A DNA stretch of 32,258 bases from a bacterium. Its GTDB lineage: Bacteria; Ratteibacteria; UBA8468; B48-G9; JAFGKM01. The position numbers and the translations under genes were made by a program. Of this stretch, positions 2 through 18,362 are shown piece after piece. The notes under the pieces are model-generated. The model made no database searches and was not told where the DNA came from. It saw only the letters and a program-made list of their open reading frames with translations. Every line of letters begins with the position of its first letter. Position 1 is the first letter of the stretch. Location: assembly GCA_026414725.1 (NCBI GenBank), contig JAOAIL010000002.1, positions 88,223-120,480 on the forward strand. Direction: 5' to 3'.

Positions 2-691
2 CTTTTTCTAAAAAATATAGATATAGTTCTTTTATTCTTCTCTACTTTACTATGGGCAATTATGCATGGCTTGCCTTTCCCTCATTACTATATTCCTCTC
101 ATTCCTTTTATTTTTCTCTTATCAGTTAAGGGATTTTATAACTTCCATCAGATATATACTTTCGGTAAAGTCAAAAAATATTTTTATCTTTTAATTTTAC
201 TTTCTATTTCCCAATCTCTTTTACACTGGAATGGTATTGACTTTCATAAGCAATGGATAAGATTCATAAAAGAAAAAAAATGGGAAGCAAGATATGAAAA
301 AAATAAAGATATTGAATTGATAAATTATATTCAGGAAAATGTTCCGCAGAATGAAAAAATAGTACTCTGGGGATTAAATCCGAGAATATATATATTCTCA
401 GAAAGAGAACCAGGAACAAGGTTTATTTCATCAGTAGAACCGGTTAATGGTTTTGTTTATTACGATATCCGGAAAATTATACAGTTCCCTGAAGCAGAGC
501 AATTATTTCTTTACGACCTTGAATCCAATAAAGTAAAATATTTTATAGATGTTACTAATAAAAGTTTATTAAATATGGGATATTACACTATAGATAAATA
601 TCCTGCTATTGCAAAGTATCTATATGAAAATTTTATTTTGATAGGTAATATAAATGGATGTTATATATGGAAAAGGAGTAGTTATGAATAA
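2..691 (+). CDS. GT-C family membrane glycosyltransferase, C-terminal part (5' truncated)
   Basis: The frame is open from base 2 through the ATG at 62, so the gene begins before the window and only its last ~230 codons are seen. Three hydrophobic stretches come first: around the ATG, then one containing HYYIPLIPF, then YFYLLILLSISQSLLHW. A soluble tail of about 140 residues follows, with an extended NYIQENVPQNEKIVLWG-like segment and the ending CYIWKR. This shape (last membrane helices, then a periplasmic C-terminal domain) is usual for GT39/PMT_2-type lipid-sugar-dependent transferases. The catalytic N-terminus is missing, so the family call rests on architecture and on the many similar genes nearby. 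Its end overlaps the next gene by 8 nt. Confidence 0.6.
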   Translation, partial: LFLKNIDIVLLFFSTLLWAIMHGLPFPHYYIPLIPFIFLLSVKGFYNFHQIYTFGKVKKYFYLLILLSISQSLLHWNGIDFHKQWIRFIKEKKWEARYEKNKDIELINYIQENVPQNEKIVLWGLNPRIYIFSEREPGTRFISSVEPVNGFVYYDIRKIIQFPEAEQLFLYDLESNKVKYFIDVTNKSLLNMGYYTIDKYPAIAKYLYENFILIGNINGCYIWKRSSYE

Positions 692-1631
692 TAAAAAAAT
701 AAAAATTCTAGTTACTGGTGGAGCAGGATATATTGGTTCTGTTTTAGTCCCCTTTTTCTTAGAAAAAGGTTATGAAATTATAGTTCTTGACAATTTTATG
801 TATAATCAGACGTCACTTCTTGACTGTTGCCACTTTAAAAATCTTGAAATCATAAGAGGAGATGTAAGAGACAAAAATTTATTGAAAGAATTAATAAGAA
901 GAGTGGATATTATTTTCCCACTTGCCTGTATAACAGGTGCACCTGCCTGTGCAAAAAACCCAATTACAGCAGAAGAAGTGAACCTCAATGCAATTAAAAC
1001 CATCATAAAAGAAAGAAGTAAAGACCAAATTATAATCTTCCCAACAACAAATAGTGGATATGGTATAGGACAGGAAGGAATTTATTGCACAGAAGAAACA
1101 CCACTAAATCCCATTTCTTTATATGGTAGATTAAAAGTAGAAGCAGAAAAAGCAATTCTTGACTCCGGGAATTCTATAACTTTAAGATTAGCCACTGTTT
1201 TCGGTATAAGCCCAAGGATGCGACTTGACTTGCTTGTAAATGACTTTGTTTATAGAGCGGTAACAGATAGAAGTTTAATCCTTTTTCAGGGGCATTTTAA
1301 AAGAAACTATGTTTATATAGGAGATGTCGCAAAGGTTTTTTTACACTGTCTAACAAATTTTGATAAAATGAAAAACCAGCCATATAATTTTGGATTAAGT
1401 AATGCAAATTTAAGTAAGATTGAACTCTGTCAGAAGATAAAAGAACAGATACCTGACTTTTATTTTGTTGAAGCAGAAGTAGGAGAAGACCCTGATAAAA
1501 GAAACTATATTGTAAGCAATGAAAAAATAGAAAAGAGCGGTTTTAAAGCAGAAGTATCTGTAGAAGAAGGTATAAAAGAACTTATAAAAGGATACCAGAT
1601 TATAAGAAAAAATCAGTTTACAAATATCTGA
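684..1631 (+). CDS. NAD-dependent sugar epimerase/dehydratase (extended SDR)
   Basis: Predicted cytosolic nucleotide-sugar-modifying enzyme of the extended short-chain dehydrogenase family. The N-terminus has the Rossmann motif TGGAGYIGS (residues 11-19) and an acidic residue after strand 2 (VLDNF). The catalytic Y147-x3-K151 pair lies in SLYGRLKVEAEKA, preceded by FPTTNSGYG. Length 315 is normal. I chose the ATG at 684 rather than an in-frame ATG 30 nt upstream because AAAAGGAG sits at 671-678 just before it. It overlaps the upstream stop by 8 nt and is followed after 2 nt by the radical SAM gene. Substrate cannot be read from sequence; the neighbours suggest a GDP- or dTDP-hexose. It could be a 4-epimerase, reductase or dehydratase. 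Confidence 0.82.
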   Translation: MNNKKIKILVTGGAGYIGSVLVPFFLEKGYEIIVLDNFMYNQTSLLDCCHFKNLEIIRGDVRDKNLLKELIRRVDIIFPLACITGAPACAKNPITAEEVNLNAIKTIIKERSKDQIIIFPTTNSGYGIGQEGIYCTEETPLNPISLYGRLKVEAEKAILDSGNSITLRLATVFGISPRMRLDLLVNDFVYRAVTDRSLILFQGHFKRNYVYIGDVAKVFLHCLTNFDKMKNQPYNFGLSNANLSKIELCQKIKEQIPDFYFVEAEVGEDPDKRNYIVSNEKIEKSGFKAEVSVEEGIKELIKGYQIIRKNQFTNI

Positions 1632-1633
1632 TT

Positions 1634-3103
1634 ATGGAAAACATTGATTTGATTCTGGTCAATCCCGGTGTCCGTTCAGCCACATATGGAAAATTGGGAC
1701 AGTCACTTGCAGGTATAGAACCACCCTTATGGTGTGGACTAACCGCTTCTTTCATAAGACAACTCGGTTTTTCTGTAAAAATCATTGATGCTGATGCAGA
1801 AGAATTATCTCCTGAAGAAACTGCGGACAGGATTTTAGAAAATACTCCATTATTGATAAATATCGTGGTTATGGGAACAAATCCTTCTGCTTCATCCACT
1901 CCCAAAATGGTTGTGACAAGGAAACTAATAGAAAATATTAAGAAAAAATCTGATGTAAAAATAGTATTAAGTGGTATTCATCCTTCTGCGCTACCTGAAC
2001 AGACATTAAAGGAAGAAAAAACAGATTATATTGCTTACGGAGAAGGGTTTTATACCATTCTACAATTACTAAAGATGCTAAAAGATAAGTCCTTAAAAAT
2101 TGATGAGATTGAAGGGCTATTCTATAGAAAAAACGGAGAAATAAAAGCCAATAAACCAGCAGAATTGATTAAAGATGTTGATATGCTTCCTTTTGTTGCC
2201 TGGGACCTTTTACCTATGGAAAAATATAGGGCACACAACTGGCACTGTTTTGGAGATATTGAAAACAGGAGCCCTTATGCTGCTATATATACAAGTTTTG
2301 GCTGTCCATACCACTGCAATTATTGCAATATCCACGCTGTTTATAATCAGAAGCCAGGCATAAGATACCGTTCCTGTGAAAAGGTAGTTGATGAGATAGG
2401 ACTGCTTGTTGAAAAATATAAAATCAGGCATCTTAAAATTGCAGATGAGTTATTTGTATTAAACAAAAAGAGGGTAGAAAAAATATGTGACCTTATAATT
2501 GAAAGAGGATACAAACTAAATATATGGGCTTATGCGAGAATTGATACGGTTGATGAAAACATATTGAGGAAACTAAAACAGACAGGTGTGAACTGGCTAT
2601 GTTATGGTATTGAATCAGCAAATGAACAAGTTAGGGAAGGGGTTTCTAAAAAAATACAGCAGGATAAAATTGAAAATGTAATAAAAATGACGAAAGATGC
2701 CGGTATATATGTATTAGGTAATTTTATATTTGGACTTCCTGATGATAACCTTGAAACAATGGAAGAAACATTACAAATGGCAGAGCGACTGAACTGTGAA
2801 TATGTAAATTTCTATGCAGCTATGGCTTATCCTGGTTCTGGGCTCTACTATGAAGCAATTAAAAAAGGAATAACACTACCTGACAGATGGGATGGTTATG
2901 CTCAACTTTCTTATGAGACATTACCACTACCAACGAAATATCTTACAGGAGAACAGGTTTTAAAATTCAGAGATGAAGCATTTATCAGATATTACAGTAG
3001 AAAGGAATATCTGGATATGATAAATGAGAAATTTGGTAGCAAAGTGGTCCAGCATATAAAACAGATGCTTGAACATAAGATTGAAAGGAAACACATAAAA
3101 TGA
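1634..3103 (+). CDS. Radical SAM protein with N-terminal B12-binding-type domain
   Basis: The N-terminal ~150 residues look like the cobalamin-binding-type domain of class B (BchE-like) radical SAM proteins: IDLILVNPG start, then IVVMGTNP, IVLSGIHPSALPEQ and YIAYGEGF. The usual DxHxxG base-on motif is not clear. The radical SAM core follows, with C224-x3-C228-x2-C231 (CPYHCNYC) for the 4Fe-4S cluster, then KIADELF, YGIESANEQV and a GNFIFGLPDD strand. Length 489 is typical. It starts 2 nt after the SDR stop with no obvious SD, suggesting translational coupling, and ends in an ATGA overlap with the DegT-type gene. The setting suggests a radical step on a sugar or lipid (C-methylation, epimerisation or dehydration). 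The reaction is unknown. Confidence 0.85.
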   Translation: MENIDLILVNPGVRSATYGKLGQSLAGIEPPLWCGLTASFIRQLGFSVKIIDADAEELSPEETADRILENTPLLINIVVMGTNPSASSTPKMVVTRKLIENIKKKSDVKIVLSGIHPSALPEQTLKEEKTDYIAYGEGFYTILQLLKMLKDKSLKIDEIEGLFYRKNGEIKANKPAELIKDVDMLPFVAWDLLPMEKYRAHNWHCFGDIENRSPYAAIYTSFGCPYHCNYCNIHAVYNQKPGIRYRSCEKVVDEIGLLVEKYKIRHLKIADELFVLNKKRVEKICDLIIERGYKLNIWAYARIDTVDENILRKLKQTGVNWLCYGIESANEQVREGVSKKIQQDKIENVIKMTKDAGIYVLGNFIFGLPDDNLETMEETLQMAERLNCEYVNFYAAMAYPGSGLYYEAIKKGITLPDRWDGYAQLSYETLPLPTKYLTGEQVLKFRDEAFIRYYSRKEYLDMINEKFGSKVVQHIKQMLEHKIERKHIK

Positions 3104-4293
3104 AAGTACCCTTTGGAGCATTATCTATCACCCAAAAATCAAAAGAATTGATAGAAGAGATATTAAAAACAGGAAGAGTTTCAAGTGGTAGATATGTAAG
3201 GGAATTTGAAAAAAAATTCGCCGAACTTACAGGAACAAAAGAAGCAGTTGCAGTAAGTTCTGGCACAGATGCACTGGCACTTGCACTGGCAGTTCTTTAT
3301 GACTTTGGAGCAAAGAGAGGCGATGAGGTAATAATACCTGCTCTTTCTTTTATTGCTACTGCCAATGCTGTTTTACAGGCAGGTTTTACACCTGTCTTTG
3401 TTGATATAAAATTAGAGACATTGAATATTGACCCAGAGAAGATAGAAAGTGCCATTACCAAGAAAACAAAGGCAATTATACCTGTCCACCTTATGGGAAA
3501 ACCAGCAGAGATGGATAAGATAATCAATATCGCAAAAAAATATAAGTTGTTTATTATTGAAGACGCTGCTGAAGCTCATGGAGCAGAATATAAAGGAAGA
3601 AAAATAGGATGTCTTGGAGATATGGCTGGTTTTAGTTTATATGTAGCACATATAATAACAACAATAGAAGGAGGAATTATAACAACTGATAGAAGTGATT
3701 TTGCTGAAATTTTAAGGTCATTAAGGTCCCATGGGAGAGCATGTAAATGTAATGTCTGTACATTAAACACATCAGAAGCATACTGTAGGAAAAGATTTAA
3801 AGAAGGTAGAGATATAAGATTTGTCTTTGAACGCGCAGGGTTTTCATCAAAAATGAATGAAGTTGAAGCAGCAATTGGTCTTGGTAATTTAGATATATAT
3901 GAGGAAATTTTGAGTGCAAGAAGGCGAAATTTACATCTTATGATAGAAAGATTTAAAGAATTTTCTGACTACTTTTTTACAATTAAAGAAGAACCTTATG
4001 AAAAGATAGGTCCTCATGCTTTCCCTGTTATTATTAAAAAGGGGGTTGATATTAACAGGAACCAACTCGTTGATTTTCTCACTAAAAACGGAATAGATAC
4101 AAGAGACCTCTTTTCTTCTATACCAACACAGTGTAGTGGATACAAATTTTTGGGCTATAAGAAAGGTAATTTTCCAAATGCTGAATATATAGGAAACAAT
4201 GGTATTCATATAGGAATTCACCAGAATATAGATAAAAGTTTAATAGATTATATCATCAAAATCTTCAGGGATTTTATTAGTAAAAAATCATGA
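3100..4293 (+). CDS. DegT/DnrJ-fold PLP/PMP enzyme with Lys-to-His switch and Cys cluster; candidate sugar 3-dehydratase
   Basis: Fold type I DegT/DnrJ/EryC1/StrS protein of normal length (397). Seen: SSGTDALALAL, IIPALSFIATANAVLQAGF, the cofactor aspartate D155 in IIEDAAEAHG, and a C-terminal domain. The position that holds the PLP-binding lysine (SFxxxKxxxxGEGG) reads SLYVAHIITTIEGG, so H184 replaces Lys. A His here is known in GDP-4-keto-6-deoxymannose 3-dehydratase (ColD) and in the Fe-S enzyme E1 (AscC/RfbH/SpnQ), which remove the 3-hydroxyl instead of transaminating. Residues 215-233 hold C215, C217, C220 and C229 followed by RKRF, in the same place as the 2Fe-2S loop of E1, but spacing differs and the E1 cysteine equivalent to A157 is absent. 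ATGA overlaps join it to both neighbours. Transaminase activity is unlikely; the substrate is inferred only. Confidence 0.8.
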   Translation: MKVPFGALSITQKSKELIEEILKTGRVSSGRYVREFEKKFAELTGTKEAVAVSSGTDALALALAVLYDFGAKRGDEVIIPALSFIATANAVLQAGFTPVFVDIKLETLNIDPEKIESAITKKTKAIIPVHLMGKPAEMDKIINIAKKYKLFIIEDAAEAHGAEYKGRKIGCLGDMAGFSLYVAHIITTIEGGIITTDRSDFAEILRSLRSHGRACKCNVCTLNTSEAYCRKRFKEGRDIRFVFERAGFSSKMNEVEAAIGLGNLDIYEEILSARRRNLHLMIERFKEFSDYFFTIKEEPYEKIGPHAFPVIIKKGVDINRNQLVDFLTKNGIDTRDLFSSIPTQCSGYKFLGYKKGNFPNAEYIGNNGIHIGIHQNIDKSLIDYIIKIFRDFISKKS

Positions 4294-5210
4294 AAAAAGA
4301 CAGTTTAATCTATATTGCAGGTCATACAGGACTCATCGGCTCTGCTATCACCAGAGGGCTTAAATCTCTCGGCTATAAAAATCTTATTTTAAAAACACAT
4401 AACGAATTAGACCTTATAAATCAAAAAGAAGTTGAAAAACTTTTTAAGAAGGAAAGACCTGAATATGTATTTGTATGTGCTGGGAAAACAGGTGGAATAT
4501 ATGCTAATATGAAATATCCGGCTGACTTTATATATCAAAATCTTCTTATATCTGCTAATCTCATTCATTCTTCTTTCCTTTATAAGGTAAAAAAACTACT
4601 TTATATAGGATGTTCCTGTATGTACCCAAAGTTCTGTAAACAACCCATGAAGGAAGAATATCTTTTAACAGGAGCACTTGAACCAACGAGCGAACCATAT
4701 GCTATCGCTAAAATAGCAGGAATCAAAATGTGTATTTCTTATTACAGACAGTACGGTTCTAATTTCATCCCTGTTATAGCAGGAAATATCTATGGTCCCG
4801 GAGGAAGTCATTTTAACGAAGAGGCACATGTTATCCCTTCTTTAATTAGAAAGTTTTATGAGGCAAAAAGAAATAATGAGAAATCAGTAACAATCGGTGG
4901 AACAGGCAAACCCACGAGGGACTTTTTATATGTAGATGACATGGCAGATGCCTGTATATTTTTAATGAGAAACCTGGAAGGTGGTGAAATTTATAATATC
5001 GGAACAGGAACTTCTGTATCAATATCAGAAATAGCGCATATCATCAAGTCGGAAATAAAATATAAAGGGGAAATAGTATTTGATATATCTAAACCTGATG
5101 GAATGTTACAGCGATGCCTTGATATAACAAAGATTAAAAATATAGGATGGAAGCCAAAAACACAAATAAAAGAAGGAATAAAGAAAACTTTACAATGGTT
5201 TATGAGATAA
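4290..5210 (+). CDS. fcl: GDP-L-fucose synthase-like epimerase/reductase
   Basis: Extended SDR closely resembling GDP-L-fucose synthase (GDP-4-keto-6-deoxymannose 3,5-epimerase/4-reductase): GHTGLIGS (11-18), KQPMKEEYLLTGALEPTSEPYAIAKIAG-type core (two blocks), Y137 and K141, C110 and H180 at the epimerisation positions, NIYGPGG, and RDFLYVDDMADA. Length 306 is usual. One oddity: by alignment with E. coli Fcl the catalytic Ser107 is a cysteine here (C108 in GCSCMYP). The gene overlaps the lysine-less DegT gene by 4 nt, and gmd, which makes its expected substrate, lies 1.4 kb downstream. Because the upstream enzyme may be a 3-dehydratase, the product could be a GDP-3,6-dideoxyhexose such as colitose (ColC-like role) rather than GDP-fucose. 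Confidence 0.85.
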   Translation: MKKDSLIYIAGHTGLIGSAITRGLKSLGYKNLILKTHNELDLINQKEVEKLFKKERPEYVFVCAGKTGGIYANMKYPADFIYQNLLISANLIHSSFLYKVKKLLYIGCSCMYPKFCKQPMKEEYLLTGALEPTSEPYAIAKIAGIKMCISYYRQYGSNFIPVIAGNIYGPGGSHFNEEAHVIPSLIRKFYEAKRNNEKSVTIGGTGKPTRDFLYVDDMADACIFLMRNLEGGEIYNIGTGTSVSISEIAHIIKSEIKYKGEIVFDISKPDGMLQRCLDITKIKNIGWKPKTQIKEGIKKTLQWFMR

Positions 5211-6583: not shown

Positions 6584-7567
6584 ATGAAAAAAGCATTGAT
6601 AACAGGTATTACGGGTCAGGATGGTTCTTATCTTGCAGAATTATTGCTGGAAAAAGGATATGAAGTTCATGGTATTGTAAGAAGAGTTGCTTTTGAAGAT
6701 CCGGAACATAGATTATGGCGAATAAAACACATTAGAGATAAATTATATTTACACTGTGGTTCTATGGAAAGTTATGCCAGTATTTATAATATAGTTGAAC
6801 AGGTCAAACCAGACGAATGTTATCATCTTGCCGCTCAGAGTTTTGTAAGTTACTCATTTGAAGATGAATTTTCCACATTGAATACAAATATAAATGGAAC
6901 AACATATATTCTATCTGCTATAAAAAATAGAAAACCAGATTGTAAATTTTATTTTGCTGCCTCCAGTGAAATGTTCGGACATGTTCTTGAAACTCCTCAG
7001 AAAGAAAGTACTCCTTTTAATCCAAGATCTCCTTATGGAATTTCAAAAGTAGTTGGCTATTATTTTACAAAAAATTATAGAGAAGCTTATAACATATTTG
7101 CCTGTAGCGGCATATGTTTTAACCATGAATCACCGAGGAGAGGATTTGAATTTGTTACAAAAAAAATTTCAAGGGGAGTTGCAATGATAAAATTTGGTCT
7201 TACTGATAAAATAAAGATTGGAAATCTTGAAGCAAAAAGAGATTGGGGATTTGCTCCTGAATATGTAGAAGCAATGTATATAATGCTTCAGCAAAGCAAA
7301 CCAGAAGATTACGTTATAGCAACAGGAGAAACACATTCTGTAAAGGAATTTGTTGAACTTGCCTTTGAAACAGCAGAACTGAACTGGGAAAAATATGTTG
7401 AAATAGATAGTTCTTTATTCAGACCTGCTGAGGTTTATGAACTTAAAGGAGATATAACAAAGATTAAAAAAGAAATTGGCTGGCAACCTAAAATAAAATT
7501 TAAAGAACTTGTAAAACTTATGGTTGAAAATGACCTTAAAGAAATACAGAAACTTCAGAAAAAATGA
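6584..7567 (+). CDS. gmd: GDP-mannose 4,6-dehydratase
   Basis: Converts GDP-D-mannose to GDP-4-keto-6-deoxy-D-mannose, the branch point to GDP-fucose, GDP-rhamnose, GDP-perosamine and GDP-colitose. Clear Gmd motifs: ITGITGQDGSYLAELLLEKG at the NADP site, HLAAQSFV, FAASSEMFG with S128-E129, Y151-x3-K155 in SPYGISK, the NHESPRRGFEFVTKKI signature, and GNLEAKRDWGFAPEYVEAM. Length 327 is slightly below the usual 345-370. A good SD (AAAAGGGG) precedes the ATG. The 3' end overlaps the next gene by ATGA. The DegT-type and Fcl-like enzymes upstream are the probable users of its product. Confidence 0.93.
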   Translation: MKKALITGITGQDGSYLAELLLEKGYEVHGIVRRVAFEDPEHRLWRIKHIRDKLYLHCGSMESYASIYNIVEQVKPDECYHLAAQSFVSYSFEDEFSTLNTNINGTTYILSAIKNRKPDCKFYFAASSEMFGHVLETPQKESTPFNPRSPYGISKVVGYYFTKNYREAYNIFACSGICFNHESPRRGFEFVTKKISRGVAMIKFGLTDKIKIGNLEAKRDWGFAPEYVEAMYIMLQQSKPEDYVIATGETHSVKEFVELAFETAELNWEKYVEIDSSLFRPAEVYELKGDITKIKKEIGWQPKIKFKELVKLMVENDLKEIQKLQKK

Positions 7568-17195: not shown

Positions 17196-18362
17196 ATGAA
17201 AATATACCCTTTAAATAAACCTGATTGGGGAATAAAAGAAATTATTGCGGTAACAAAATATATACTTAGAGGAAAAGGAGGTGGAGGAAACGGTGAAATA
17301 ACAAGAAGAGTTGAAAAAAAAATAGGAGAAATTTTAAATATCCCTTATGTTTTTTTAACATCTTCAGGTACATCTGCATTAGAACTTGGGTTATATGCCC
17401 TACAATTACAACCAGGATATGAAGTCATAACAAGCTCATTTACATTTGTATCTACCGCAACTGCAATTATTCGGCAAGGTGGAATACCAGCTTTTGTAGA
17501 TATTGAAATAAATACTATGAATATAAATCCTGATTTAATTGAAGACAAAATTAACGAAAAAACAAAGGTAATTATTCCTGTACATTACGGCGGCTTAGGC
17601 TGTAAAATGGAGAAGATATTGAATATCGCTCAAAAATATAATCTTTCAGTAATTGAAGACGCAGCCCATGCATTTGGTTCAAAATATAAAGAAAAATATT
17701 TAGGTACATGGGGAGATATAGGATGTTTTAGTTTCCATGAAACTAAAAATATTGTATGTGGAGAAGGTGGAGCTATTGTTACTTCTAACGAAGGATTATC
17801 TGAAAAAATAGATATAATAAGAGAAAAAGGAACTAACCGTTCAAAATTTCTTAAAGGAGAAATAGAAAAATATGAATGGATATCAGAAGGTTCTAATTTT
17901 CTACTTTCAGATATTCTTGCTGTTCTATTAGAACAACAAATTAACAAATTGGAGATAATCAACAAAAAACGTAAAGAAATTGCTGAATATATGTACAACA
18001 AACTTCAATCTTTATCTCCACCTTTAATTTTACCTAATAAAAATTTAATGGAAGAAACAAACTGGCATATTTTTGCAATAAGAGTACCTAATCAGCAAAT
18101 TCGTAGCGAATTATTAATATACTTAAACAAGAATGGTATAAAAGCTTCCTTCCATTATCTTCCATTACATCTTTCTCCATATATTAAAACTAATCCTATT
18201 TATAAATATAAAAATGGAGATTTACCTATAACAGAGTCAGTAGCAAGTACTATAATAAGATTGCCATTAAATACAAAAATGAAATATAAAGATGTAGATT
18301 ATATTGTTTATCATATAGAAAAATTTTTCAAAGGAGAAAAGTGCTGTGAAAACAGAATATAA
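17196..18362 (+). CDS. wecE: dTDP-4-keto-6-deoxyhexose 4-aminotransferase (WecE/RffA-like)
   Basis: DegT/DnrJ family aminotransferase with an intact PLP lysine, K184 in FSFHETKNIVCGEGG, and D156-type cofactor aspartate in VIEDAAHAFG. The stretch IDIIREKGTNRSKFLKG followed by IEKYEWISEGSNFLLSD is characteristic of WecE/RffA, which makes dTDP-4-amino-4,6-dideoxygalactose (Fuc4N) from dTDP-4-keto-6-deoxyglucose. Length 388 is close to E. coli WecE. The needed RmlA/RmlB enzymes are not in this window. No SD is seen before ATG 17196. The next gene starts inside its 3' end (17-nt overlap). Probable supplier of an amino sugar to the module that follows. Confidence 0.87.
   Translation: MKIYPLNKPDWGIKEIIAVTKYILRGKGGGGNGEITRRVEKKIGEILNIPYVFLTSSGTSALELGLYALQLQPGYEVITSSFTFVSTATAIIRQGGIPAFVDIEINTMNINPDLIEDKINEKTKVIIPVHYGGLGCKMEKILNIAQKYNLSVIEDAAHAFGSKYKEKYLGTWGDIGCFSFHETKNIVCGEGGAIVTSNEGLSEKIDIIREKGTNRSKFLKGEIEKYEWISEGSNFLLSDILAVLLEQQINKLEIINKKRKEIAEYMYNKLQSLSPPLILPNKNLMEETNWHIFAIRVPNQQIRSELLIYLNKNGIKASFHYLPLHLSPYIKTNPIYKYKNGDLPITESVASTIIRLPLNTKMKYKDVDYIVYHIEKFFKGEKCCENRI

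Follow-up and report, generated by a model that had tools for sequence, protein, structure and literature searches.

To our knowledge, few kinds of B6 enzyme with histidine in place of the cofactor-binding lysine remove O3 from activated sugars, namely E1, ColD and SpnQ. For E1 (also AscC or RfbH; CDP-4-keto-6-deoxyglucose 3-dehydrase, PDB 3bcx), Agnihotri's work of 2004 is said to have named C193, C251, C253 and C261 as the ligands of the cluster. In all three enzymes the histidine lets pyridoxamine phosphate (PMP) eliminate the C3 oxygen (PMC8987622). SpnQ, a His-type 3-dehydratase with a [2Fe-2S] cluster which is served by general ferredoxin/flavodoxin reductases (PMC8987622), is likened to the enzyme discussed here by description and not by sequence, and it differs in its substrate (dTDP-4-keto-2,6-dideoxyglucose) and in belonging to an antibiotic pathway. 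The C3-dehydratases of Campylobacter jejuni HS:5 and HS:11 are 62-67% identical to ColD (PMC10440746), and they too are of the His type, with GDP-4-keto-(6-deoxy-)heptose as substrate. When the HS:5 enzyme was combined with Cj1427, GDP-D-glycero-4-keto-3-deoxy-heptose was obtained as a novel in vitro product (Raushel and colleagues, PMC10680097). In the heptose pathway of C. jejuni HS:2, however, an epimerase and not a C3-dehydratase acts at the equivalent step, and the pathway as described includes neither a radical SAM protein nor a TPP enzyme.

The window (the whole stretch of 32,258 nucleotides that was analysed) encodes a His-type DegT-fold protein (Table 1). Its top NCBIfam model is the E1/RfbH equivalog (NF011936), at 272.8 bits and hence far under the cut-off of 423, so that by the NCBIfam rule the protein is not RfbH. 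An AlphaFold2 model built from a 71-sequence alignment reached a mean pLDDT of 94.7, with the weakest confidence at about residues 211-240, where the cysteine loop lies (10-residue block means of 66-83). In a Foldseek search E1 was matched at E 1e-37; among the top fold matches it also gave the highest TM-score to the query (3bb8/3bcx, 0.90-0.91), with ColD close behind. H184, which lies in SLYVAHIITTIEGG and is invariant across the window family in the alignment, coincides in the PDB alignment with H220 of E1 (3bcx), the residue mutated to lysine in the H220K structure 3bb8. The reading frame, its coordinates and the histidine at the cofactor-lysine position are as the preliminary description had them, and the assignment as a His-for-Lys DegT enzyme of the 3-dehydratase type is supported by these alignments. 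Most likely, the product removes the C3 oxygen from an activated sugar, which is probably a seven-carbon one. Elsewhere in the window (17196-18362) lies a second DegT protein, an ordinary one that keeps the lysine and passes the model for dTDP-4-amino-4,6-dideoxygalactose transaminase (NF008687; 388 bits vs 375).

Table 1. Features of the window and of related loci (positions are those of the window unless a locus is given)
Feature	Position	Strand	Basis
Cj1427-like SDR, GDP-heptose C4-dehydrogenase homologue	654..1631	+	PDB 6vo6/6vo8, 403 bits; linked in 12/23 loci
B12-binding-domain radical SAM protein (BchE/HpnJ/AprD4-like)	1634..3103	+	PF04055, PF02310
Predicted nucleotide-sugar C3-dehydratase, His-type DegT-fold	3100..4293	+	397 aa, ATG start; PF01041 (DegT_DnrJ_EryC1), 338 bits
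Ala157 codon, position of E1 cluster ligand C193	3568..3570	+	Alignments (EDAAEAH vs EDCCDAL)
His184 codon, Schiff-base lysine position	3649..3651	+	Alignment: corresponds to E1 H220, ColD H188
Four-cysteine loop RACKCNVCTLNTSEAYCRKRF, residues 213-233 (C215, C217, C220, C229)	3736..3798	+	Alignments of relatives
GDP-L-fucose-synthase-like (Fcl-like) SDR	4290..5210	+	NF047922, 402 bits (cut-off 500); PDB 7anh, 314 bits; 12/23 loci
Gmd (GDP-mannose 4,6-dehydratase)	6584..7567	+	TIGR01472, 414 bits (cut-off 415)
Two-subunit TPP enzyme	L131:8738-10505; L031:2362-4371; L137:16988-19008

As regards descent, all 44 His-type sequences in a 120-sequence tree, ColD and E1 included, fell into one clade (support 0.98). 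In a tree computed without the loop columns, the window family (with L042-L045) formed one group (96/98), ColD and E1 grouped together (99.9/100) and the node uniting the two was well supported (99.5/100), which supports, on sequence grounds, the earlier suggestion of a third lineage, i.e. a third branch beside the ColD and E1 enzymes. A further His clade (L006-L009, L047), which is flanked by Gmd, fell outside, and its joining node was weaker (62.8/87). At the loci L126-L129 and L047, His-type DegT genes of a clade that has no cysteine loop, and that falls outside both ColD and the window family in the loop-free tree, adjoin Gmd, with an Fcl-like gene at three of them; these loci are, from their gene content, probable GDP-colitose cassettes.

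In the histidine, the fold, the place of the loop, three ligand cysteines (C215, C217 and C229, which correspond to C251, C253 and C261 in the PDB alignment to 3bcx) and the RF behind them, the window protein resembles E1. It differs in that the fourth of the E1-type [2Fe-2S] ligands, C193, is replaced by A157, and in that the loop holds an extra cysteine, C220, for which the alignment gives no ligand counterpart in E1; the rearranged cysteine set proposed at the outset is thus borne out. Position 157 is alanine in the loop-bearing relatives (serine in L042), while the E1/RfbH group, as sampled, always has cysteine there. The spacing C215-x-C217-x2-C220-x8-C229 followed by RKRF (residues 215-233) is present as originally described and is not a matter of chance, since every one of the 14 complete loops carries the four cysteines at identical spacing, namely the loops of the window, L002-L005, L031-L037, L042 and the Solidesulfovibrio magneticus protein (13 distinct genomic sequences including the window, plus S. 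magneticus). A fifteenth loop, that of L046, runs into the contig end after its third cysteine, which it retains. These relatives, with 54-72% identity to the query, share the stretch HGRxCxCxxC-x8-C-xxRF and belong to Omnitrophota, Nitrospirae, Chloroflexi, Desulfovibrionaceae and the phylum of the window itself. Conservation of the cysteines in homologues, on which the preliminary description had staked its proposal, holds among loop-bearing members and fails in sister sublineages, where the loop is absent and the histidine is kept (L038-L041, 56-62% identical to the query, and L043-L045). In the loop-free tree, members with the loop and members without it are intermixed, which implies that the loop has been lost or gained more than once.

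The position of the loop and its Cys-x-Cys...Cys-xx-RF pattern suggest that it is the same loop as that of E1. Pairwise shuffle tests of window-type against E1 loops, which are short, gave p values from 0.0005 to 0.57 depending on the pair, and homology by pairwise shuffling was set aside, the similarity beyond the cysteines being only suggestive. The E1 loop of Yersinia pseudotuberculosis holds a further, non-ligand cysteine (C257), so an extra loop cysteine is not unique to the window family. That the cysteine set is invariant speaks for a metal site in the loop-bearing members, and the odds that the loop holds an Fe-S cluster in a rearranged way may be put slightly above even. It is also possible, with a lesser probability, that the four cysteines bind zinc or are structural, the enzyme then being a ColD-like hydrolytic dehydratase without a redox function: C-x-C-x2-C motifs occur in zinc sites too, the loop-less sisters, whose operon is the same, have to function without the loop, and no electron partner is encoded nearby. 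Against this stand the three cysteines (of four) at the [2Fe-2S] ligand positions of E1, with the RF common to both behind them (KRF in most), and the identifiable hosts of the loop, among which are anaerobic groups (Solidesulfovibrio and Pelotomaculum, for instance). A motif scan (plant-type and 4Fe-4S) of the sequenced flanks of 23 loci revealed no E3-type reductase or ferredoxin, the lone ferredoxin motif match falling in a probably spurious 80-aa frame; the absence of an E3-type gene that had been noted for the window holds for these loci as well, and a dedicated ferredoxin or E3 partner was discarded as a candidate. In this the window family departs from E1, as it does in having neighbours of the GDP-heptose and not the CDP-hexose type.

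Gene neighbourhoods were compared at 23 window-family loci, many of which are ended by contig ends. Like ColD, the family combines histidine for lysine with a GDP-sugar gene context; unlike ColD, which groups with E1 and is without the cysteine loop, it has a C4-dehydrogenase and a B12-radical SAM protein as neighbours. Over 308 aa, the SDR at 654 shares 56% identity with PDB 6vo6, which, together with 6vo8, we take to be Cj1427, the PDB title itself reading sugar-nucleotide epimerase/dehydratase. In three of the 23 loci this gene is replaced by a Gmd-like 4,6-dehydratase (cluster c10). With the Cj1427/Cj1428 heptose pathway of C. jejuni the loci share the C4-dehydrogenase (at the identity just given), an Fcl-like C4-reductase and heptose kinase/guanylyltransferase-like genes. 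The Fcl-like SDR of the window is, judging from its matches, likely the C4-reductase of the pathway, with or without epimerase activity. An HddA-like kinase was found in 15 of the 23 loci and an HddC-like nucleotidyltransferase in 14; HddA and HddC are their best NCBIfam names, with scores well under the cut-offs, and in the PDB the kinase is best matched by a heptose kinase. The GmhA candidate in the window genome scores 207.6 bits vs a cut-off of 209.45. A TPP enzyme of two subunits, either a split transketolase or a PDH-E1-like alpha/beta pair, also recurs across loci. In the window genome (G000) the split transketolase and the kinase occupy L131 7745-10505, no more than 4.5 kb upstream of L131 12224, where the window begins. 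At one locus, an RmlC-like 3,5-epimerase (L045:7483-7986; 153.8 bits, cut-off 155.75) stands directly upstream of a loop-less dehydratase.

In the window, some 2.3 kb separate the dehydratase gene from Gmd downstream of it, and Gmd, the His-type DegT gene and the Fcl-like gene fall together within 4.5 kb. A colitose-type route, in which Gmd supplies GDP-4-keto-6-deoxymannose and the DegT and Fcl-like proteins act as ColD and ColC to give GDP-L-colitose, would account for this arrangement, and the distant His clade (L006-L009, L047) adjoins Gmd in 5 of 5 loci, with an above-threshold Fcl-like gene in three. It is nevertheless unlikely here, since a comparison of the 23 family loci, with the upstream side of the window genome itself among them, turned up no Gmd at 45% identity or more, vs a Cj1427-like or c10 gene in 15, so that no conserved Gmd, ColD and ColC cassette emerges; furthermore, the DegT gene sits directly within the Cj1427-like/radical SAM operon. 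Gmd 6584 probably belongs to a separate pathway. GDP-4-keto-6-deoxymannose, the substrate put forward in the preliminary description, is accordingly not preferred, as Gmd is not a conserved neighbour and the Cj1427-like GDP-heptose C4-dehydrogenase gene is. It is improbable that the protein is an atypical aminotransferase making a 4-amino sugar by means of PMP and either His184 or another lysine: sugar aminotransferases, perosamine synthase in most cases, lead the fold matches when these are ranked by E-value, and SpnQ, also of the His type, transaminates without its reductase (PMC8987622), but the characterised His-clade enzymes are all 3-dehydratases (E1 and ColD in the tree, SpnQ and the C. 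jejuni enzymes from the literature) and no conserved formyl- or acetyltransferase partner was identified in the loci examined.

The complete cassette, four-cysteine dehydratase (DMR_RS22010) included, is present on the 58.7-kb plasmid pDMC1 (L137, NC_012797.1) of Solidesulfovibrio magneticus RS-1, a cultured sulphate reducer. There it is accompanied by a GmhA-like isomerase and by an L-2-hydroxyglutarate oxidase that scores above its curated cut-off; since Cj1427 yields L-2-hydroxyglutarate (PMC10680097), the oxidase fits a role in recycling or removing this by-product. The guanylyltransferase of S. magneticus scores slightly higher as a mannose-1-phosphate guanylyltransferase, and the heptose assignment is not certain because the kinase and transferase scores all lie below cut-offs. 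The best reading of the operon is that it would be a natural counterpart of the in vitro combination of Cj1427 and a C3-dehydratase. We put at roughly 55% the probability that the window protein is a PMP/PLP-dependent GDP-4-keto-sugar C3-dehydratase with GDP-D-glycero-4-keto-heptose as the likeliest substrate and a probable cluster in the loop. Observed are the fold, the histidine, the conservation of the loop, the union of all His-type sequences in one clade and the recurrent heptose-type operon; the reaction and its substrate, like the cluster and its electron source, are inferred.

In the proposed mechanism, the Cj1427-like C4-dehydrogenase encoded two genes upstream would make GDP-D-glycero-4-keto-heptose. 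With H184 in place of the Schiff-base lysine, the cofactor would work as PMP and would condense with the C4 ketone to a ketimine; H184 would then deprotonate PMP at C4', and the hydroxyl at C3 would depart. The resulting 4-keto-3-deoxy-heptose would subsequently be reduced by the Fcl-like reductase. In loop-bearing members, C215, C217, C220 and C229 probably bind an Fe-S cluster, with C220 taking the place of C193 of E1; such a cluster would imply reductive turnover as in E1 and SpnQ, for which a general ferredoxin or flavodoxin may provide the electrons. The loop-less sisters may instead follow a hydrolytic turnover with glutamate, as in ColD. Two loop-less sublineages keep the same operon, which argues that the pathway does not depend on the loop.

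The radical SAM protein is nearest to the BchE and HpnJ models and, in PDB, to AprD4, all with modest scores, and an orthologue occurs in 15 of the 23 window-family loci. Of 35 genomes in the phylum, five have the dehydratase, and these five and no others have the radical SAM orthologue (Fisher p = 3e-6, uncorrected for relatedness); the SDR at 654 is present in four of the five, and in the remaining one the contig stops inside the radical SAM gene. The association underlying the earlier proposal of a coupling to the dehydratase is real. The link is not specific to the dehydratase, however, as radical SAM orthologues also accompany its loop-less versions, and those on Azospirillum plasmids (L138, L139, L140; 47-49%) occur with an HddA-like kinase in regions without a His-type DegT gene, that of A. 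argentinense also having a Cj1427-like SDR and a split transketolase. For the same reasons direct coupling was set aside, and the radical SAM protein appears to belong to the core heptose pathway and not to the dehydratase. For the TPP enzyme, two-carbon branching is a possible role, and a dedicated supply of sedoheptulose-7-phosphate is equally so. PDH-E1-like pairs attach two-carbon branches to 4-keto sugars in avilamycin biosynthesis, and the same has been proposed for paulomycin (PMC4425429), so a branched 3-deoxy-heptose is conceivable. A search of a limited literature collection returned no prior account of the four-cysteine dehydratase family or of a radical SAM protein in heptose pathways.

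More tentatively, these loci may represent a widespread, undescribed GDP-3-deoxy-heptose pathway with a possible TPP-dependent two-carbon branch and a radical-SAM modification, in which the fourth ligand of an Fe-S cluster would have moved from the place of C193 in E1 into the loop (C220), and the sisters would have lost the loop and become hydrolytic. If true, one and the same pathway would hold a natural switch between turnover of the E1 type and of the ColD type. As both forms share one operon context, the question of why some His-type enzymes need an Fe-S cluster becomes testable on close relatives. Furthermore, the window family points to a natural source of GDP-3-deoxy-heptose, previously known from mixed-enzyme synthesis with C. 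jejuni proteins, and S. magneticus RS-1, with its plasmid pDMC1, is a cultured anaerobe in which this sugar could be sought.
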